A DNA stretch of 64,000 nt from an uncultured Clostridium sp. GTDB lineage: Bacteria; Bacillota_I; Bacilli_A; Acholeplasmatales; Anaeroplasmataceae. Below are positions 165 to 45,358 of this stretch, piece by piece (the stretch's first letter is position 1; every line of letters begins with the position of its first letter). The notes under the pieces are model-generated. The model was not told where the DNA came from, did no database searches, and was given only the letters and a program-made list of their open reading frames with translations. The DNA is taken from positions 1 to 64,000 of the forward strand of contig CAMNHY010000003.1 in the NCBI GenBank assembly GCA_946540005.1, given 5' to 3'. The translations under genes and the position numbers were made by a program.

Positions 165-1154
165 ATGATTATTGCACATGCCGTACTAGAAATTTTAGAT
201 TTAAGAAATAGTCAATATATTTATAGTGATTCTGAATTAGATTTTACTAAAGATTTGACTAATGAATATGTTACAAAGATTATTGAAAAGATTAAAAAGA
301 ATGCTAGTAAGCGTGAAGGAGAATTTAGAGAAACATCAGAACTTAGAAAAACTCTTCAAACATTTAGTCAAGATACTAACTTTACTGAATTTGCAAAATT
401 AGTATCTAAACAATTTGTTGAGGCACTTAAAAAAAGCGAAACTTATATTTCAAGTGATTTATTAGTAGTAGAATATAGGGAAAATAATGAAGATAATTTA
501 GCATTTATCTTCTTAGATAATGAACAAGCTATCACGCACATAATGTATCAAAATGAAGGTAAAACTAATAATCAAATAACTAAATCATTAGATTTATTAC
601 CTCAATCAAGTCTAAAAATTAATACATTTATGATTGTATCATTACCATCTTTAAAATTTTATTCAGTTGAAAAACTTAGAAAAATTGATGGAGTTAAGCA
701 TAAAGTATTAGAAGAAAATGTAGTTGATGCTACATTTAAACCATCAACAAATGATATTTATAAAGCCGTTAAAAATGCCGTAGTCAAATTATCAGAGGCA
801 GATGGATTAGACAAGACTGAAGCTATTGTAAATGCTAAAGAACATTTTAATCGTCATATGGATGAAGAATATTTAGATATAGTATCTTTAGCTGATGATG
901 TGTTTAAAAATGATAGTGTAAAAAAAGAATTTATTAATGATTTAAAGAAAAAAGGTATCAATGAAACAGAACCACTTGAATATGAATTAGTTTCAAATAA
1001 AACTAAAAATTCTAAGATTAAAACTGATACAGGAATAGAATTAACTATTCCAAATGATTATTTCCTTAATAAGGATAATATTGAAATTAAAGATAACGAT
1101 GATGGTACAATGACCATCGAAATTAAAAATTTTACAAGAATAATAAGCAGGTAA
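165..1154 (+). CDS. Nucleoid-associated protein, NdpA/YejK-like
   Basis: The product is about 329 residues. Its opening (MIIAHAVLEILDLRNSQ), the acidic SDSELDF segment near residue 25 and the overall length fit the 37-kDa nucleoid-associated protein family (NdpA/YejK, PF04245). Members bind the nucleoid, but their job is poorly known. I chose ATG 165 because GGAG lies 9 bases upstream and a TATAAT box sits at 129-134, inside the longer open frame that begins at 69. The C-terminus is rich in charged residues. The lipoprotein gene at 1160 starts 5 bases after the stop, so both are probably on one transcript. The family call rests on pattern recognition, not a search. Confidence 0.7.
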   Translation: MIIAHAVLEILDLRNSQYIYSDSELDFTKDLTNEYVTKIIEKIKKNASKREGEFRETSELRKTLQTFSQDTNFTEFAKLVSKQFVEALKKSETYISSDLLVVEYRENNEDNLAFIFLDNEQAITHIMYQNEGKTNNQITKSLDLLPQSSLKINTFMIVSLPSLKFYSVEKLRKIDGVKHKVLEENVVDATFKPSTNDIYKAVKNAVVKLSEADGLDKTEAIVNAKEHFNRHMDEEYLDIVSLADDVFKNDSVKKEFINDLKKKGINETEPLEYELVSNKTKNSKIKTDTGIELTIPNDYFLNKDNIEIKDNDDGTMTIEIKNFTRIISR

Positions 1155-1159
1155 TTGAT

Positions 1160-2407
1160 ATGAAGAAGAAAATTTTATTATTTGGGGTAATGGGATTAAT
1201 TTTATTTACAAGTGGTTGTACAACTGATTATACATCTACTTTAAATCAAAGCGTTATTTCTAGTGAAACTAGTCATACGAGTGATGAAAGTACATCAACT
1301 ATTAATGACGGACTTTTTACTAAAGTATTTAATGATTCTACAAATTGTGGTAAAGGAAGTAGCCCTCAATTTGTTGCATATGAAAAATATAATGTTGGTG
1401 TATATAGAGCACAAACATATTTATCATCAGTATTTACAACACTTTTACCTTCACCTAACATTTCAGGATATGAAATGAGTTCAAGTGTTATGAATCTAAG
1501 TGGTATTAAAGGAATTAAAGCTATTGAATTAACTTATAAATCTGAAAGTGAATTCTATGTTTATGCTTCTGAAAGCCGTGAGATGAGTGAAGAGAATAAG
1601 ACTGTAGTTCCTGCATCAAGCGGAAGAGATTATAAGTATGCAATTGTTAGATTTGATAATGCAAGCTATTATCAAATTACAACTGGTAAAAGTAATTTAA
1701 CAATCAAATCTATGACAATTAGATATGATGGTAAGACTCCAGTTGATGATTATGATTATTTATCATATAAAGCTAATAAAATTAATATGGATGATTTATA
1801 TACTAATTATAATGTTTCTGATGGTGATGTAAGAAGTATTCCAACTGATATTACAATAAATGCTGATGGTACATATACTATAAATGAAACAAAGGAATAT
1901 ACATATCACACAAGAGATTATTTAAAAGCTAATTATAGTGATAAATATGCAGATGATTTAGCTTTATTAGATCCTATTGATGTAATGAATTACTATATGT
2001 TATTCCATACATATCCTATAAATTACTTTACAAAAGAAGAATATGAATCAGGTTTAGGTAGTAATTATTTCTCAAGTTCATGCTTAAGAAGAGTATCTCC
2101 ATATAGTGGTGATTATGGATATGGTGCAGCTGTCCCTGATAATGGTGGAACATATTATGAATTAGATATTGATTTAAATAACACATATTCATTCACTAAT
2201 AGAGGTAACGGTAGAGTTGTAGTTTGGGGAAAAGGATTTAATGGTAAAGGTTATGATAAAAACCCTGTTGCTGTATATACAGATGACCATTATGCTACAT
2301 TTAGAGAATATATGAATTATGGTGTATTAGCTCCTAGATTTAATGCTGAACAAACTTTAACACCATATGTATGGTCTAACCCTACAATTTTATCAAAAAA
2401 TAAATAA
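1160..2407 (+). CDS. Secreted lipoprotein with C-terminal barnase-like ribonuclease domain
   Basis: The product has 415 residues. A signal peptide ends in the lipobox FTSGC with the lipidated Cys at 20. A Ser/Thr-rich linker follows (about 21-50), then a beta-rich domain of unknown type (about 55-190). The last 140 residues resemble the microbial ribonuclease family (barnase, PF00545). The order matches barnase: TK at 291-292 (Lys27), YYELDID with Glu334 (Glu73), NRGNGR with Arg348 and Arg352 (Arg83, Arg87), and TDDHYATF with His377 (His102). All five active-site counterparts are present, so RNA cleavage outside the cell is likely. The gene may share a transcript with the nucleoid protein gene. 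The next gene is a paralogue. I aligned by eye only. Confidence 0.72.
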   Translation: MKKKILLFGVMGLILFTSGCTTDYTSTLNQSVISSETSHTSDESTSTINDGLFTKVFNDSTNCGKGSSPQFVAYEKYNVGVYRAQTYLSSVFTTLLPSPNISGYEMSSSVMNLSGIKGIKAIELTYKSESEFYVYASESREMSEENKTVVPASSGRDYKYAIVRFDNASYYQITTGKSNLTIKSMTIRYDGKTPVDDYDYLSYKANKINMDDLYTNYNVSDGDVRSIPTDITINADGTYTINETKEYTYHTRDYLKANYSDKYADDLALLDPIDVMNYYMLFHTYPINYFTKEEYESGLGSNYFSSSCLRRVSPYSGDYGYGAAVPDNGGTYYELDIDLNNTYSFTNRGNGRVVVWGKGFNGKGYDKNPVAVYTDDHYATFREYMNYGVLAPRFNAEQTLTPYVWSNPTILSKNK

Positions 2408-2414
2408 TTAAAGT

Positions 2415-2443
2415 GCATCTTTAGAAATAAAGATGCTTTTTTT
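2415..2443 (+). terminator. Intrinsic terminator
   Basis: A 9-bp stem (2415-2423 with 2428-2436) with a GAAA loop is followed by seven T. It ends the transcript of the first lipoprotein. Confidence 0.9.
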
Positions 2444-2485
2444 ATACAAAATAAAGAAAATGTATATAAATTGTAATATTAATTG

Positions 2486-2494
2486 TGATATAAT
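2486..2494 (+). promoter_or_regulatory. Extended -10 promoter for second barnase-like lipoprotein
   Basis: TGATATAAT at 2486-2494 is an extended -10. The gene therefore has its own promoter, separate from its paralogue upstream. Confidence 0.6.
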
Positions 2495-2529
2495 TAAAAC
2501 ATACTTTATAAAAGGAAAGACAGAAGAAT

Positions 2530-3882
2530 ATGAAAAAAACTACAAAATTTTTAAGCTTAGCTTTTACAGCTTTAGTTTTATCTTCTTGCCAGGAACTTAA
2601 TTTAACTTCAACTACTATTTCTCAAATTAGTAGTGAATCTTCAAATATTGCGGTAGATAATTCAAGTAAAAGTAGTTCAAGTAGTAGTGAAAGTAGCACT
2701 ACTACATCTGAATTCAGTACTACAACAGAAACTAAAACTACTTCAGAAAATATTAGTTCATCAAGTTCTAGTTCAAGTTCTTATACTTCAACTACAGATT
2801 ATACTAATATAGATTTGTTGGATAAAACAATTAAATCAGATGAAATCGGTGATAATTCTTATTCAACGGGAAATTATGGATATTCTAGTAAAACTAATTT
2901 AACTTATTATAGAACCACTTCACCAAGTGGATGTCTTGTTAAATTGTTAAAGAATCCATCTTTTTCAATCAATCCTCATCCTTCTTGCATAGCTAATAAG
3001 GATCCTTATAATGGCATTAGACAAATTGAAATGACTTATTCAGCTGATTCGGATGCATATTTGTTAGCTTCACTTGACAAATCTTATAGCGAAAAATATG
3101 ACATTAAAAGAAGTTCTACATTTACAACAATTACTTTAAGAATTTCTCCAGCTAGTTATTTTAAGATTTGTTCAACATCATCAGATTTTACAATTAATAA
3201 ATTAACTATTAAATATGATAATGTAACAGAAGTAGATAAGACAGAGTTAACATATTCAGATTTAAGAATTAATATGTCTGATTTTTATGATACTTATACA
3301 CCTACACCTGGTGTTGTAAGAAAGGCTCCATCTAAATTAAATATTAATGATGATGGAACATATTCAGTATCAGAATACAAAGAATATACATATGCAACAA
3401 GTGATTGGGCAAGAAGTCAATCAAATCCAGATCAATATGCCTACACAGATCCTGTTGATGTAGCAAATTATTATATGTTATTCCATACATGGCCAGCAAA
3501 TTATGGAACAAAGAAAGGTGTAAAACAATTAAAAAATATCTTTACATCTAATAAGGTTCGTCAAGTATCTGAATATTCAAGACAAAATGGATATGCAACA
3601 GCCGTGCCATATTTCTATAAAGATAATTTTGTTTATTATGAATTAGATATAGATGTATCTGGTACATATTCAACAGGTAGTAGAGGAACAGGAAGACTAG
3701 TTGTATGGAATACTGGATTTAATGCAACTAATTATGATGAAAATCCTGTAATTGTATTTACAGATGATCATTATGCAACATTTAAGGAATTCTTAAATTA
3801 TTCAACATTTGGTGAAAGGTTTAATGCTGAACAAGCAATTACATCTTATTCATGGTGCCTAAATAAAACTTTAAAGAAATAA
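2530..3882 (+). CDS. Secreted lipoprotein with C-terminal barnase-like ribonuclease domain (paralogue)
   Basis: The product has 450 residues and is a diverged paralogue of the previous gene with the same three-part design. The signal peptide ends at LSSC (Cys20). The Ser/Thr linker is much longer, about 75 residues made almost wholly of Ser, Thr and Glu. The middle beta-rich domain spans about 95-230, and the barnase-like end follows. Active-site counterparts are Lys328, Glu371, Arg385, Arg389 and His414. The long linker probably reaches through a surface layer. The gene stands between its own promoter and terminator. No barstar-like inhibitor (about 90 acidic residues) is seen nearby. A role in nucleic-acid scavenging or in attacking neighbours is inference. 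Confidence 0.72.
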   Translation: MKKTTKFLSLAFTALVLSSCQELNLTSTTISQISSESSNIAVDNSSKSSSSSSESSTTTSEFSTTTETKTTSENISSSSSSSSSYTSTTDYTNIDLLDKTIKSDEIGDNSYSTGNYGYSSKTNLTYYRTTSPSGCLVKLLKNPSFSINPHPSCIANKDPYNGIRQIEMTYSADSDAYLLASLDKSYSEKYDIKRSSTFTTITLRISPASYFKICSTSSDFTINKLTIKYDNVTEVDKTELTYSDLRINMSDFYDTYTPTPGVVRKAPSKLNINDDGTYSVSEYKEYTYATSDWARSQSNPDQYAYTDPVDVANYYMLFHTWPANYGTKKGVKQLKNIFTSNKVRQVSEYSRQNGYATAVPYFYKDNFVYYELDIDVSGTYSTGSRGTGRLVVWNTGFNATNYDENPVIVFTDDHYATFKEFLNYSTFGERFNAEQAITSYSWCLNKTLKK

Positions 3883-3884
3883 TT

Positions 3885-3910
3885 GAATGGACGTTAAGTC
3901 CATTCTTTTT
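3885..3910 (+). terminator. Intrinsic terminator
   Basis: GAATGGAC (3885-3892) pairs with GTCCATTC (3898-3905), followed by five T. Confidence 0.88.
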
Positions 3911-12344: not shown

Positions 12345-13829
12345 ATGATTTATATAGTAGGTGACTCAACTGTATCAGAATTTAATGAAGTTTATTTTTA
12401 TAAACGTTGCGGTTGGGGTTGTGAAATTGGTACTTATTTTAAAGGCCTTGAAATTAAAAATTTAGCAATGTCTGGAAGAAGTTCTTTAAGTTTTATTAAA
12501 GAGACTAATTACCAAGAATTTTTAAAGATAAAAGAAGGAGACTTCTTATTTATAGGATTTGGTCATAATGATGAAAAAGATGATGATCCTGATAGATTTA
12601 CTAGTGCTAATTTAGATATTAATACAAAAGGTTCATTTAAGTATACATTATTTAATTATTATATTAAAATTGCAAAAGAAAGAAAAGCTTATCCAATTTT
12701 ATGTACACCAATTGTTAGACTTGATAATACAAATGAATATGTTGGTAAAAATATTCATATAACTAAGAATGGTGATTATAGAAAGGCTATTATTGAATTA
12801 GCTAAAGAAGTAAATATTGATTATGTTGATTTAACATCTATATCTCTTGAGGTAGCTAAAAGATTAGGATATGAAAAATCATGTTTGATGCACGCTATCA
12901 CAAAGGGTAAGATTGATGAAAATAATAATTTAGTACCTGATATTAATTCAGTTGACCCAACACATATTAATACCTTAGGTGCAAAATACTTTGCATATTC
13001 TATCGCAAAAGAATTAAGTTTTACTAATAATCCTATTAAAAAATATATTGTTAATCCATTAATTAAACCTACATTTGATGATTTAGTTATGGATGAAGGA
13101 TATAAATTTGTTTCTTATATTGCACCTGATTTTGATGCATATAAGCCTAAAGAATGGTTTGATACAAAGTCAAAAACATATGTAGGTACAGCTTTTGGAG
13201 ATACAGGAAGAGGTACTTTTGATAGATCTAATGGATTTGTCGCAAAGGAATTTGAAAATAAATTTATTGTTGGACAAATTCTTAAGAATGAATCTGAATA
13301 TACTCCTCTTGGTAAGATATCTTTAAACAGTGAAGGTGTTGCGATTATTGGAAGAAAAATACCTTCAAATAAGAATTTTACTTTTGAAGCTTGTGCTAAA
13401 ATTATAGATTGTTCTCCTATTCCTCAAGCTGGTTTTGGAGTATCATTAAGAGATGATTTCTATCTTGATTTAAAAATTGCAGATAAAACAATTACTTCTA
13501 ATTATGTGGCAGCAGGTTTTGTTAGTGAAAAAGATAATTTAGTTATAAATTATAGTAGAGCTAATTCACAATTAGTTAAGACTGATAATAAAATTGAAGG
13601 AGAATTTCATAATAATTTAGAAGCTAAATTTATAATCAAGAGACTTGGTCAAGTTGTATATGTTACTACAATTTATGATAATGTAGAATATAAAAACACA
13701 TTTACTGATTTTGATTTTACTCAAATTGATAAATCAAATATTTATATTTCATTATTTGCAACAAGAAATACATTAGTAGAATTCAGTGAAATAAAGTTTA
13801 TAGATGAAGGAATTGCGCAAGAAGCGTAA
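12345..13829 (+). CDS. GDSL/SGNH-family esterase, rhamnogalacturonan acetylesterase-like
   Basis: The product has 494 residues. The first 225 form an SGNH hydrolase: VGDST with Ser8 as nucleophile, the GHND block at 73-76, and DPTH with Asp204 and His207. GHND in block III is typical of carbohydrate esterase family 12, which removes acetyl groups from pectin side regions. The C-terminal 270 residues are beta-rich and unassigned. No signal peptide is present, so the enzyme should act in the cytosol on imported fragments. A terminator hairpin overlaps the last codons. The pectin link is supported by GH28 and pectate lyase genes elsewhere in the window. Confidence 0.75.
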   Translation: MIYIVGDSTVSEFNEVYFYKRCGWGCEIGTYFKGLEIKNLAMSGRSSLSFIKETNYQEFLKIKEGDFLFIGFGHNDEKDDDPDRFTSANLDINTKGSFKYTLFNYYIKIAKERKAYPILCTPIVRLDNTNEYVGKNIHITKNGDYRKAIIELAKEVNIDYVDLTSISLEVAKRLGYEKSCLMHAITKGKIDENNNLVPDINSVDPTHINTLGAKYFAYSIAKELSFTNNPIKKYIVNPLIKPTFDDLVMDEGYKFVSYIAPDFDAYKPKEWFDTKSKTYVGTAFGDTGRGTFDRSNGFVAKEFENKFIVGQILKNESEYTPLGKISLNSEGVAIIGRKIPSNKNFTFEACAKIIDCSPIPQAGFGVSLRDDFYLDLKIADKTITSNYVAAGFVSEKDNLVINYSRANSQLVKTDNKIEGEFHNNLEAKFIIKRLGQVVYVTTIYDNVEYKNTFTDFDFTQIDKSNIYISLFATRNTLVEFSEIKFIDEGIAQEA

Positions 13830-32705: not shown

Positions 32706-34241
32706 ATGGCAAATAATAAAAGAACAACTTCGAAGAAAAGTAGTTCATCATTAGAAAAAAGCATCAAAAAAGGTGCTAAAAAAGTTTATAAAAAAAATAA
32801 AAATAAACCTGTATTTTGGATTGTTTTATTAATTTTAATAATCATAATTGCGGGTGCAGCAATCTTTTTTGTTAAAATGAATCCCAATTTAATCAAGGAT
32901 TTGACTGACACAAAGAATACAACTTCTGAGATTAGTGGTACAAAAGAATCAAATATAGTCCCAAGTGACTCAAAGAATACAACTCCTGAAATTAGTGGTA
33001 CAAAAGAATCAAATATAAACCCAAGTGACACAAAAAATACAACTACACATGTTCATCATGATGAAAAAATGGAAGGTGTTGTCTATGATGATTTTCAAAT
33101 TCATTTTTTAGAATTCTCATCAGATAGTGCAGGAGATTCTGTTTATATTAAAGCCGGAGATACAGATATTTTAATTGATGCGGGTAACAAGAATGATAAT
33201 AGTGAAAAATTAAAATCACAAATTGATAATTATTGTCATGATAATAAATTAGAATATGTAATAATAACTCATGGTGATTCAGACCATATAACTTCTTTTT
33301 ATGGTAGTAGTAAGAAAAATGGTTTATTGTATACTTATGATGTTGGTACAATAATTTATAATCAAAATACTAATAAGTCTAATAAGACTACTAGTTTATA
33401 TTCTAATTTAATGAGAGCTGTAGATTATTGTGTATCAAAAGGTACTACAAGAAAATATGCACATGAATATTTTGAAGAAGATAAATTAACTGCTAAATCT
33501 GATTCTTATATTAAATTATCAGATAATGTTGAAATGGATATTTTATATAATCCTTATTATTTTACAAAAACAGATGATGAAAATAACTATTCAGTATGTA
33601 CTTTATTTAAATATACAAGCGGTACTGAAACTCATAATTTCTTATTAACAGGTGATTTAGAAAAAGAAGGTGAGGAAGCATTAGTTAAACATTATCAAAA
33701 AGGTACATATGGTACTCTTCCTCATGTTGATTTGTATAAAGGAGGTCATCATGGTTCTAAGACTAGTAGTAATACAATTTTACTAGATACGATTACTCCT
33801 GATATTTGTTGTGTATGTAGTTGTGCTGGTACAAATGAATATACAACTGATTATACAAATCAGTTCCCAACTCAACAATTTATTAATAGAATTGCTAAAT
33901 ATACTGAAAAAGTATATATAACTGGTCTATATGAAAATGGTTCATTTAAACCAATGAATGGAAGAATTACTATATCTTGTGGTTTTGATTCAAATACTAA
34001 TAAAGTAGAAGTAGGTATAGCTGCAACTAATAATTTAATCAAACTTAAAGATAGTGATTGGTTTAATGAAACTATTTATGTAAAAAATTATAAAGAAGCT
34101 ACTAGTAAAGATTTAGATAATATTAACAGTTGTCCTCACGGAAATAATTCTGATAAAGCTGGTTCAAATATTTTCTATACGAAGGATGACCCAAATGTAA
34201 AAGCCGTTCCAAGAAGAATTTGGCCAAGTTATGGTGTATAA
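32706..34241 (+). CDS. Membrane-anchored metallo-beta-lactamase-fold protein, ComEC C-terminal type
   Basis: The product has 511 residues. A Lys-rich cytosolic start is followed by one membrane segment (about 36-59), a linker with a 20-residue tandem repeat (68 onward) and a histidine-rich THVHHDEK. The metallo-beta-lactamase domain lies outside the membrane, with THGDSDH, LLTGDLE and KGGHHGSKTS, as in the soluble domain of ComEC/Rec2. The membrane channel of ComEC is absent, so this is a stand-alone domain, perhaps an extracellular nuclease or phosphodiesterase. The last 90 residues are unassigned and end in RRIWPSYGV. It follows the FAD gene by two bases. Confidence 0.78.
   Translation: MANNKRTTSKKSSSSLEKSIKKGAKKVYKKNKNKPVFWIVLLILIIIIAGAAIFFVKMNPNLIKDLTDTKNTTSEISGTKESNIVPSDSKNTTPEISGTKESNINPSDTKNTTTHVHHDEKMEGVVYDDFQIHFLEFSSDSAGDSVYIKAGDTDILIDAGNKNDNSEKLKSQIDNYCHDNKLEYVIITHGDSDHITSFYGSSKKNGLLYTYDVGTIIYNQNTNKSNKTTSLYSNLMRAVDYCVSKGTTRKYAHEYFEEDKLTAKSDSYIKLSDNVEMDILYNPYYFTKTDDENNYSVCTLFKYTSGTETHNFLLTGDLEKEGEEALVKHYQKGTYGTLPHVDLYKGGHHGSKTSSNTILLDTITPDICCVCSCAGTNEYTTDYTNQFPTQQFINRIAKYTEKVYITGLYENGSFKPMNGRITISCGFDSNTNKVEVGIAATNNLIKLKDSDWFNETIYVKNYKEATSKDLDNINSCPHGNNSDKAGSNIFYTKDDPNVKAVPRRIWPSYGV
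32907..33044 (+). repeat. 60-base in-frame tandem repeat, 2.3 copies
   Basis: Copies at 32907-32966 and 32967-33026 with a partial third (33027-33044) encode DTKNTTSEISGTKESNIVPS and a close variant. They lengthen the linker between membrane anchor and catalytic domain. Copy number may vary between strains. Confidence 0.85.
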
Positions 34242-36086: not shown

Positions 36087-36164
36087 GTGATTAATTTTCC
36101 TTAGAAATAATAAAAATATGTTATTATTTTAATATAAATTATTAGATTTTTGATTGGAGTATAT

Positions 36165-37541
36165 ATGGAAATTAAAGTAGAACAACCTCAATTTTTAGAT
36201 AAAAATTATAATATATTAGATTTTGGTGAGATTAATGAAAATGCAGAGATTAATCAAAAAACAATTCAATATGCAATAGATACAATTTCACAAATGGGTG
36301 GAGGACATTTAGTTTTAAATCCTGGAATTATTGAATGTGGACCTATTGAATTAAAATCAAATATTGATTTGGTAATACCTAGAAATTGCTATTTAAAATT
36401 TGTGAAGGATCATAAATTCTATAAACCTGAAATGTTTAATTATGAAGGAAAGAAAGCTATTCGTTGTAATTCACCAATTAAGATTTGGAATTGTGAAAAT
36501 GTAGCAATTACTGGTGATGGTATTATAGATGGATGTGGCTTTTATTGGAGACCTTGTAAAGATTGGAAGATTAATGTTAAGGAAAAAGAAGCAAGAGAAA
36601 AAATCTCTACTTTCTATGTGAAAACAAAAGAAAGTATGATATGGTATCCAACTGAGTCTTCATATCTTGGTTCATTAAAAGGTATAGATAATATTACACT
36701 TGAAGAAAGTGATCAATATTGGGATTTATTTAGACCAGTATTGATTTCAATATATAAATCAAATAAAGTGTTATTAAAAGATATTACATCATCTAATTCT
36801 CCAGCGTGGAATATTCATCCATTATTTTCAACAAATTTAACTTTTGATTCAATTAAAGTTAAAAATGAATATAGTGCTCAAAATGGTGATGGTATTGACA
36901 TTGAATCTTGTAAGAATGTTTTAGTATTTAATTCTGTCTTTGAAGTTGGTGATGATGGAATTTGTATTAAGAGTGGTAAAAATAGAGAAGCTAGACTTAT
37001 AAAAGGTCCAAGTGAAAATATATACATTCATGATAATTTAGTTTATCACGCTCATGGAGGTATTGTTATTGGTAGTGAAATGAGTAGAGGTGTAAAGAAT
37101 GTATTTGTATCTAATAATTCATTCATAGGAACAGATGTTGGTATTAGATTTAAGTCAGCTATTGGTCGTGGTGGAGTTGTAGAAGACATTCATCTAGACA
37201 ATATTTATATGTCTGATATTAAAGAAGAAGCTATTATATTTGATTTAGGTTATTCTTTATATAAGATGGACCATGAAAATAGTGATGATGTAGAAGCTAT
37301 TGATAATGATGATATTCCATATTTCCAAAATATCACAATGTCTAATATGGTATCAAATGGAAGTAAGGTATTTTTAAAGATTAGAGGAATTAATCCTCTT
37401 ACTGTTAAAAATATACATATAGAAAATGTATCATTCAAATCTAAAGAATTCTTAGATTTGAATAATTGTTCGAATGTTAGATTAAAAAATGTATATAATA
37501 ATGAAGATATATTAATTGAGGATAATATTTATAATAAATAA
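36165..37541 (+). CDS. Glycoside hydrolase family 28 (polygalacturonase-like), cytosolic
   Basis: The product is about 458 residues with a right-handed beta-helix. The GH28 catalytic set is complete: Asp242 in NGDG, Asp263-Asp264 in GDDG, His297 in AHGG, and Arg328/Lys330 in RFK. These hydrolyse alpha-1,4 links of galacturonan or rhamnogalacturonan. There is no signal peptide, so it should work on fragments brought into the cell. TTGGAG precedes ATG 36165; the longer frame from 36150 lacks a ribosome site. No sugar transporter lies nearby. Substrate is not resolved. Confidence 0.88.
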   Translation: MEIKVEQPQFLDKNYNILDFGEINENAEINQKTIQYAIDTISQMGGGHLVLNPGIIECGPIELKSNIDLVIPRNCYLKFVKDHKFYKPEMFNYEGKKAIRCNSPIKIWNCENVAITGDGIIDGCGFYWRPCKDWKINVKEKEAREKISTFYVKTKESMIWYPTESSYLGSLKGIDNITLEESDQYWDLFRPVLISIYKSNKVLLKDITSSNSPAWNIHPLFSTNLTFDSIKVKNEYSAQNGDGIDIESCKNVLVFNSVFEVGDDGICIKSGKNREARLIKGPSENIYIHDNLVYHAHGGIVIGSEMSRGVKNVFVSNNSFIGTDVGIRFKSAIGRGGVVEDIHLDNIYMSDIKEEAIIFDLGYSLYKMDHENSDDVEAIDNDDIPYFQNITMSNMVSNGSKVFLKIRGINPLTVKNIHIENVSFKSKEFLDLNNCSNVRLKNVYNNEDILIEDNIYNK

Positions 37542-43575: not shown

Positions 43576-43594
43576 TATAATGAAAACGATATCA
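43576..43594 (+). promoter_or_regulatory. Pectate lyase promoter -10 with overlapping cre site
   Basis: TATAAT at 43576-43581 is overlapped by TGAAAACGATATCA (43581-43594), which matches the CcpA cre consensus TGWNANCGNTNWCA at every defined position. Placement at the transcription start suggests repression by CcpA when preferred sugars are present. Confidence 0.7.
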
Positions 43595-43609
43595 AAAAGG
43601 AGAAATATT

Positions 43610-45358
43610 ATGAAAAAGAAATTAATAGGATTATCTTTATTAAGTTTATCTATGCTTGCTTCATGCGATTTATTAGAAACAAGCCAAACAAATACAACTG
43701 GAAATAACTCAGTTATATCTAGTTCTGAAAGTGATCCTACAACAGCTGAATCTAGTTCAAGTGTAGGTACAACAAAGGAGACACCAAGTACTACAGAGGA
43801 GACTCCATCTACACCAAAGGAAACTACAACAGATGAAACTCCAATTGCTGTAGATAAGAGTGTTTATGGTTATGGTATTGATAAGACTTCTGATTTTACT
43901 CAATACTATGGTACTGATGCTTATGTAACTGTTACTAATGCAGAAGAGTTATTATATGCATTAAAAGATGCAAGAGAAGATTATACAACTACTTGGAATG
44001 CTGAAAAGAATAATTACACACAAGAATTAAAATCTGAAGGAAAAGTTAAAGTTATTGAAATTGCTAATGACATTGAGCTAGGATACAATAAAATTAGCGA
44101 TGAGGCAAAAAAAACTAATTTAGTTGGAAACTTTTCACAAAAGAAATCAACATATGATAAGAATGGTATTCAAGCAAGTGATATGTTAAATGAGTATGGT
44201 ATATCTCAAATTGCAATTGAAAATACTTCAAATCTATTAATATATTCAAAGAATGGTGCTAAATTACGTCATGGAGGATTTAAAGTAAATTCTTGTTATG
44301 ACATTGTATTTAGAAATTTAGATATGGATGAATTATGGCAATGGGAAGATGCTAATACAGTAAAACCTAATGTTAAGATTGGTGATTATGACTGCTATGG
44401 TTGGGCTTATTTTAAAATTAATTTCTCATCTGCTATTTGGATTGATCATTGTTCATTTGGTAAATCATATGATGGTCAAATAGATATTGCAAACCCTGTA
44501 TATTGGACAGAAGGAACAGCTTTCCGTGCTCCTTATAATGCTGAAAATAAGCACGGTGTTTCTATTACAAATTGTGACTTCCATGCTGGTTCTGATGATA
44601 AAGATGGATATATCTATAAGATGATGGAAAAGATTGAACAAAATTATCAAGAAAAAGGCGAAGCTTCAGACTATCAATTCTATAGAACATTAAGAGATAC
44701 TTATGGCTTAACATTTGAACAAATTCTATATGGTGTTGCTATCCCTCAAAAGAAAGGATTCTTAATTGGTGATGGTACAAATGAAGCTGACACAGCTATT
44801 AATCATAACATTTATGTAACATTTGCAAACTGCCGTTTCACAAACTTACAAGATAGATTACCAAAGTTACGTGGTGGTTTTGTATACATGTATAATTGCG
44901 TAGTAGATAGTACTCAATTCTATGAATATAAGAAAGTTTATAAAGAAAAGAATGTTGCTGACATTAAGAATTTATATTTTAAGAAATTTAAGTGCGGTAC
45001 AACTTCTCAAGGTTTAATTGCTGCATATGGTGGAGCTATTAGATGTGAAAATTGTATTTTCTTAGGAATTGAAGATTTAGCTAAGAATAATGAAAAAGAA
45101 GATTCAACTCTTGGTGGTGGAATTAGTTTAGTTGACTGTCTATATTCTAAAGATGGAGTAGCAGCTACTACATTAATTAATACAGACACTAACAAAGATT
45201 CACTTGTTCTTGGCAGTGGTTTAATTTCAGTTGATAAATTTAATTGGCATAATGAAGATAACAAAAACCCATTTGTTGTAATATTAATTGATGTTAATAC
45301 ATTAGCTGATACTTTAAGCAATGTTTATAACATTGGAGCTAATCAAATTACTGAATAA
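43610..45358 (+). CDS. Pectate lyase (PL1 family) lipoprotein
   Basis: The product is about 582 residues. The signal peptide ends in MLASC (Cys19), then a Ser/Thr/Glu/Pro-rich linker to about 80. The PL1 beta-helix follows, with WIDHCSF, SITNCDF and DRLPKLRGG, where Arg416 and Arg421 match the conserved catalytic-region arginines. An insertion of about 90 residues sits between these motifs. It cleaves polygalacturonate by beta-elimination at the cell surface. AAAGGAG precedes ATG 43610. A cre box overlaps the promoter. Confidence 0.88.
   Translation: MKKKLIGLSLLSLSMLASCDLLETSQTNTTGNNSVISSSESDPTTAESSSSVGTTKETPSTTEETPSTPKETTTDETPIAVDKSVYGYGIDKTSDFTQYYGTDAYVTVTNAEELLYALKDAREDYTTTWNAEKNNYTQELKSEGKVKVIEIANDIELGYNKISDEAKKTNLVGNFSQKKSTYDKNGIQASDMLNEYGISQIAIENTSNLLIYSKNGAKLRHGGFKVNSCYDIVFRNLDMDELWQWEDANTVKPNVKIGDYDCYGWAYFKINFSSAIWIDHCSFGKSYDGQIDIANPVYWTEGTAFRAPYNAENKHGVSITNCDFHAGSDDKDGYIYKMMEKIEQNYQEKGEASDYQFYRTLRDTYGLTFEQILYGVAIPQKKGFLIGDGTNEADTAINHNIYVTFANCRFTNLQDRLPKLRGGFVYMYNCVVDSTQFYEYKKVYKEKNVADIKNLYFKKFKCGTTSQGLIAAYGGAIRCENCIFLGIEDLAKNNEKEDSTLGGGISLVDCLYSKDGVAATTLINTDTNKDSLVLGSGLISVDKFNWHNEDNKNPFVVILIDVNTLADTLSNVYNIGANQITE

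Follow-up and report, generated by a model that had tools for sequence, protein, structure and literature searches.

Tandem lipoproteins with barnase-type domains from a barstar-free barnase clade in Bacilli, predicted to degrade extracellular RNA

Barnase and barstar are a textbook enzyme–inhibitor pair. Near the start of the window, by which we mean the whole 64,000-nucleotide stretch of DNA analysed here, two adjacent genes encode putative lipoproteins, P1 and P2, whose C-terminal parts had been likened to barnase in an initial annotation that saw no barstar. The locus therefore raises the question of what these two proteins are, what they do at the cell surface, and how a cell could carry them without the inhibitor.

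Layout of the locus and the N-terminal domain

We found that P1 and P2 are encoded by tandem plus-strand open reading frames at 1160-2407 and 2530-3882, as originally placed, and that they are paralogues, with 44% of 341 aligned residues identical (E 8e-83). The features of the locus are as follows.

165-1154, plus strand: gene of an NA37-type nucleoid-associated protein (PF04245, E 3.3e-21), with its stop codon 5 bp upstream of P1
1160-2407, plus strand: P1, a 415-aa lipoprotein with a jelly roll and a barnase-type C-terminal domain
1160-1219, plus strand: P1 signal peptide and lipobox FTSG-Cys20, from sequence
1367-1735, plus strand: P1 beta jelly-roll domain, from the alignment to P2, with the fold taken from P2
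1967-2317, plus strand: P1 barnase-type domain with K292, E334, R348, R352 and H377
2306-2350, plus strand: P1 clade-specific C-terminal extension E-Y-x-N...F-N-A-E, from the 21-member alignment
2415-2436, plus strand: terminator-like hairpin 3' of P1 (9-bp stem and T run)
2530-3882, plus strand: P2, a 450-aa lipoprotein with a Ser/Thr linker, a jelly roll and a barnase-type domain
2530-2589, plus strand: P2 signal peptide and lipobox VLSS-Cys20, from sequence
2590-2814, plus strand: P2 Ser/Thr-rich linker, aa 21-95, from sequence
2869-3216, plus strand: P2 jelly-roll domain, aa ~114-229, with a CBM29/CBM61/CBM6-like fold, from AlphaFold2 and Foldseek against the PDB
3445-3798, plus strand: P2 barnase-type domain with K328, E371, R385, R389 and H414
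3787-3831, plus strand: P2 clade-specific C-terminal extension E-F-L-N...F-N-A-E, from the 21-member alignment
3885-3905, plus strand: terminator-like hairpin 3' of P2 (8-bp stem and T run)

Because each gene is followed by its own terminator-like hairpin, P1 and P2 are probably separate transcription units. Their immediate neighbours are the NA37 gene and an SNF2-like helicase gene. In each of the genus's three genomes an NA37-type gene precedes the barnase gene(s) by a few bp (window 165-1154; L074 6695-7678; L075 10700-11686); it was considered as a hidden antidote and rejected, since the other lineages that were read did not show it next to their barnase genes.

The membrane tether proposed earlier is also predicted by our analysis, as the signal peptide ends in lipobox Cys20 in both proteins, and a lipobox is shared by most of their nearest relatives. 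Of the Ser/Thr-rich linkers ascribed to both paralogues, that of P2 is long (aa 21-95) and that of P1 is short. The extra beta-rich domain was modelled confidently by AlphaFold2 from five sequences (P2 aa ~114-229, pLDDT up to 94). A Foldseek search of the PDB with the P2 jelly roll gave E values of about 1e-4, with the carbohydrate-binding module (CBM) of a pectate lyase, CBM29 and CBM61 at the top and CBM6 also matched; identity to the top CBM matches was about 10%. In a viral structure library the jelly roll resembled phage tail and other beta-sandwich domains, and nothing specific emerged. The N-terminal domain is modelled as a CBM-like jelly roll that may bind glycans, and for such a fold it is reasonable to suggest that it might select the surface to be targeted. 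Elsewhere in the window we noted a GDSL-type esterase (12345-13829), a GH28 polygalacturonase (36150-37541) and a pectate-lyase-like lipoprotein (43580-45358), a scattered pectin-degrading set that would fit life on plant fibre in a rumen or gut.

The barnase-type domain and its active site

With single proteins, the PF00545 profile matched P1 at E 4.8e-4 (21.0 bits) and P2 at E 0.33 (11.9 bits), the Pfam gathering score being 24; in a six-frame genome search the two genes scored 24.4 and 22.9 bits, and all seven of their nearest relatives matched the family. A single-sequence PDB search gave no match, and a 7-member window-type profile matched barnase weakly (E 0.07), so the argument for barnase rests on profile–profile comparison. 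The results of hhalign showed that the window-type profile matched a canonical barnase profile from the same bacterial family at 98.3% (E 1.6e-14), and that a 21-member window-type profile matched it at 98.8% (E 9.1e-16); none of 20 column-shuffled alignments exceeded 2.6%, and the reversed alignment gave 0.2%. The canonical profile in turn matched solved barnase at E 4e-32. AlphaFold2 gave low-confidence models of this part, both from the five-sequence input (pLDDT about 30-50) and from the barnase domain alone (pLDDT 43). Since the profile homology stands above chance when set against the shuffled controls, the reading of both C-termini as barnase-type holds, and on homology and catalytic residues we assign them to the barnase-type RNase superfamily (PF00545 / BECR fold).

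Both paralogues had been reported to keep residues equivalent to barnase Lys27, Glu73, Arg83, Arg87 and His102. All five align, as K292, E334, R348, R352 and H377 in P1 and as K328, E371, R385, R389 and H414 in P2; the Glu334/His377 and Glu371/His414 pairs named earlier are correct.

A tree of 51 barnase domains separated a window-type clade A (24 rows, support 98/93), a clade B (3 rows, 99/91) and a canonical clade C (24 rows, 99/97). The split tracks barstar, with most of clade C having it and clades A and B being without. In clade A, Glu73, Arg83 and Arg87 (Arg-x-x-x-Arg), and His102 and Tyr103 (His-Tyr) are kept in 24/24 members. The C-terminal regions of the nearest seven relatives are about 39-51% identical, and a catalytic set invariant at this level of divergence indicates that the site is under selection. 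Lys27, present in P1 and P2, is retained in 7/24 members, and the guanine-recognition loop N-x-E (barnase Asn58-Arg59-Glu60) in 0/24. The corresponding counts in clade C are 23/24 for Glu73, 24/24 for both Arg-x-x-x-Arg and His-Tyr, 23/24 for Lys27 and 24/24 for the N-x-E loop. Clade A is also marked by an insert ahead of the His strand and, past that strand, by a conserved C-terminal extension, DDHYxTFxE[YF]xN...FxAE. As the N-x-E loop is gone from every member and Lys27 from 17, activity or specificity may have changed; P1 and P2, which have no N-x-E loop, are by their sequences not guanyl-specific barnases.

Set beside barnase and binase (PF00545, the bacterial RNase N1/T1 family), P1 and P2 share a homologous exported domain in which Glu73, Arg83, Arg87 and His102 align, as well as the Lys27 counterpart, but they differ in having no barstar and no N-x-E loop, and in the insert, which adds roughly 10 residues between the strands of Arg87 and His, the conserved C-terminal extension, the lipid anchor and the jelly-roll domain.

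In several members from family f11 the domain belongs to exported proteins about 730-880 aa long, one of them matching a bacterial Ig-like domain; others are lipoproteins like P1 and P2, and the congener G040 too carries a tandem of barnase-type genes. In genus g72 of family f11 (L082, L112), long secreted proteins flank the barnase gene, some of them ending in an anchor-like tail (LAFTxLLVFKKKKQK) and one having a weak Ig-like match. A mobile-element origin was rejected, as searches of phage, plasmid and viral-contig collections found no relatives. No description of clade A was found in the open-access literature, subscription papers lying mostly outside this search.

Barstar in canonical and window-type genomes

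Searches of the source genome, whose assembly is about 76% complete, with PF01337 and a clade-specific barstar profile returned no barstar, in agreement with the first reading of the locus. That reading had also treated membrane tethering as a departure from the normal state of barnase, and here our results point the other way. Among the sister genera within this family, 16 genomes encode canonical barnases, nearly all of them lipobox-bearing, and the barstar gene lies directly downstream in 14/16, often with an overlap of a few bases. These lipoprotein barnase–barstar pairs (for example L020, L025 and L028) share with P1 and P2 the bacterial family, the lipobox and a linker or repeat domain before the barnase domain; they differ in keeping Lys27, the N-x-E loop and, in those 14 genomes, barstar.

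A family-specific profile built from 13 of the sister-genus barstars found barstars in 14 canonical genomes and in none of the five window-type genomes of the family. Across the class, barstar was present in 7/8 further canonical genomes, and a PF01337 search found it in 0/22 window-type genomes, most of which are 92-100% complete. In total, barstar was detected in 21/24 canonical genomes versus 0/22 window-type genomes (Fisher p 3e-10, shared ancestry ignored). Because canonical lipoprotein barnases mostly keep barstar and none was found in window-type genomes, tethering is ordinary and the lack of barstar is clade-wide. The absence of barstar is thus a property of the whole clade and not of the source genome alone, and P1 and P2, with barstar absent, are not a barnase–barstar system.

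We considered whether loss of the barstar contact Arg59 had caused the loss of barstar, and rejected this, as some barstar-bearing canonical genomes have Tyr or Phe at that position. For two lipoprotein barnases of the canonical type whose active sites are complete (L024 and L021, in genomes G032 and G034, 97-99% complete), we found no barstar; these are possible natural losses within the canonical clade. In genera g5 and g3, lipoproteins with a List_Bact repeat and weak OB-fold matches (L076 3144-5444; L077 1709-4063) adjoin a canonical barnase–barstar pair and possibly bind nucleic acids.

Candidate functions and the safety of the cell

Three roles had been put forward for the pair: RNA scavenging, defence against RNA, and contact-dependent attack on neighbours. 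The first fits the gene neighbourhoods of relatives and the source organism's own endonuclease I lipoprotein. In genus g112, the barnase gene comes immediately after one for endonuclease I (in G374 with a 1-bp overlap; likewise in G286, G339 and G386), and the same order was found in G470; in the congeners G039 and G040 an endonuclease I gene is no farther than about 5-6 kb away. In the clade B genome G351, the gene of a barnase-like lipoprotein overlaps that of a 5'-nucleotidase lipoprotein by 8 bp. P1 and P2 themselves have no nuclease genes alongside; the one endonuclease I lipoprotein of the source genome (517 aa) is encoded elsewhere, and a 5'-nucleotidase C-domain was not found in this 76% complete genome. 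The purine-synthesis marker PF01259 was not found in 20/22 clade A genomes; the source genome, which has purC, and G039 do carry it. Having purC, the source organism is probably not a purine auxotroph, and purine auxotrophy fails as a driver for it. An ECF transporter S component (PF12822), whose gene follows the barnase gene(s) of both congeners, G039 and G040 (L074 9131-9817; L075 7150-7824), was considered as a sign of nucleoside uptake and dropped, as it is missing from the window locus.

Cultured wall-less relatives, the Izemoplasmatales, break down and use extracellular DNA and RNA (PMC10470597), and mycoplasmas acquire nucleic acid precursors with membrane nucleases of another fold (PMC12115388). 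The mycoplasma enzymes Mhp379, MG_186 and MnuA resemble P1 and P2 as membrane-associated surface nucleases of small-genome relatives (PMC12115388). The domain of Mhp379 and MG_186 is of the thermonuclease type and has a Ca2+ site, whereas P1 and P2 have a barnase-type domain and gave no Pfam match to a thermonuclease domain. Known barnase-type members are metal-independent.

From the neighbourhoods, the endonuclease I lipoprotein, the purine-marker pattern and these reports, we favour extracellular RNA degradation for salvage: P1 and P2 are probably surface-anchored endoribonucleases of a barstar-free barnase clade that scavenge RNA, their activity being predicted. The lipid anchor, to judge from the lipobox, would hold both proteins at the outer side of the membrane, and the linker and CBM-like jelly roll, going by the fold, would bring the nuclease to a surface or matrix rich in glycans. 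The barnase domain, in which Glu would serve as general base, His as general acid and two Arg as phosphate binders, would cleave extracellular RNA, and together with the endonuclease I lipoprotein it may reduce extracellular nucleic acid to small pieces for nucleotide salvage.

A different account keeps the scaffold and the acid/base pair but lets the rebuilt loop and the FxAE extension turn the protein into an RNA binder or into an enzyme that is weak, not specific for guanine or not directed at RNA; such a protein would need no barstar. The loss of the N-x-E loop in all 24 clade A members and of Lys27 in 17, the conserved C-terminal extension and the contrast in barstar counts (0/22 against 21/24) all speak for it, and we give it a real though minor chance; the invariance of Glu73, Arg83, Arg87, His102 and Tyr103 and the nucleic-acid-degrading enzymes encoded beside the relatives' genes count against it. 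So does RNase Sa, which is active and has no Lys27 counterpart. A missed barstar, lying in the missing quarter of the assembly or highly diverged, would make the pair an ordinary barnase–barstar system. The incompleteness of the source genome would allow this, but it is very unlikely: PF01337 is missing from all 22 clade genomes, most of them nearly complete, the family-specific profile recovers the barstars of 14 canonical genomes and none in five window-type ones, and the gaps 3' of P1 and P2 are merely about 110-120 bp.

The pair could also be a contact-dependent antibacterial toxin displayed on the surface. Barnase domains are common tips of polymorphic toxins (Tox-Barnase / Imm-Barstar; PMC3482391), where, as here, the domain is C-terminal in a larger exported protein, and a tethered protein with a CBM-like domain could bind a neighbour's glycans. 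The immunity protein that goes specifically with barnase-tipped toxins, however, is barstar (PMC3482391), and barstar was detected in none of the 22 genomes; no conserved small gene adjoins the barnase genes in the loci read, and Pfam and NCBIfam show no delivery or repeat domain in P1 or P2. With neither an immunity gene nor a toxin-delivery domain, we regard attack on neighbours as improbable. Surface defence against foreign RNA or phage would suit the location and predicted activity, but nothing specific was found in its support: no defence genes were noticed in the loci read, and the relatives' neighbours are catabolic; we regard this role as extremely unlikely.

If P1 and P2 are scavenging RNases, as we favour, the cell must avoid harming itself. 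The simplest guess is that the cytoplasm is spared because the barnase-type domain would turn active only after export. We infer three candidate means: the domain may fold only once exported, the C-terminal extension or the jelly roll may restrain it, or its chemistry may have changed when the guanine loop was lost. We tentatively raise the possibility that this clade of barnases, widespread in small-genome Bacilli, dispensed with barstar through export-gated activity, in which the rebuilt loop and FxAE extension (or the jelly roll) would act as a built-in safety; the enzyme would then be silent in the cytoplasm, work at the surface and prefer a base other than guanine. Since clade A keeps the catalytic residues and no inhibitor was found, it offers a natural comparison for how an exported RNase is made safe without barstar. 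It also hints at RNA as food for reduced-genome Bacilli, alongside the extracellular DNA and RNA that wall-less relatives are described as using. Elsewhere in the window, the gene at 32706-34241 encodes an N-terminal membrane segment, a linker and a metallo-beta-lactamase domain (PF00753, E 9e-9); the protein resembles a stand-alone ComEC-type exported phosphodiesterase and is possibly another surface nuclease.
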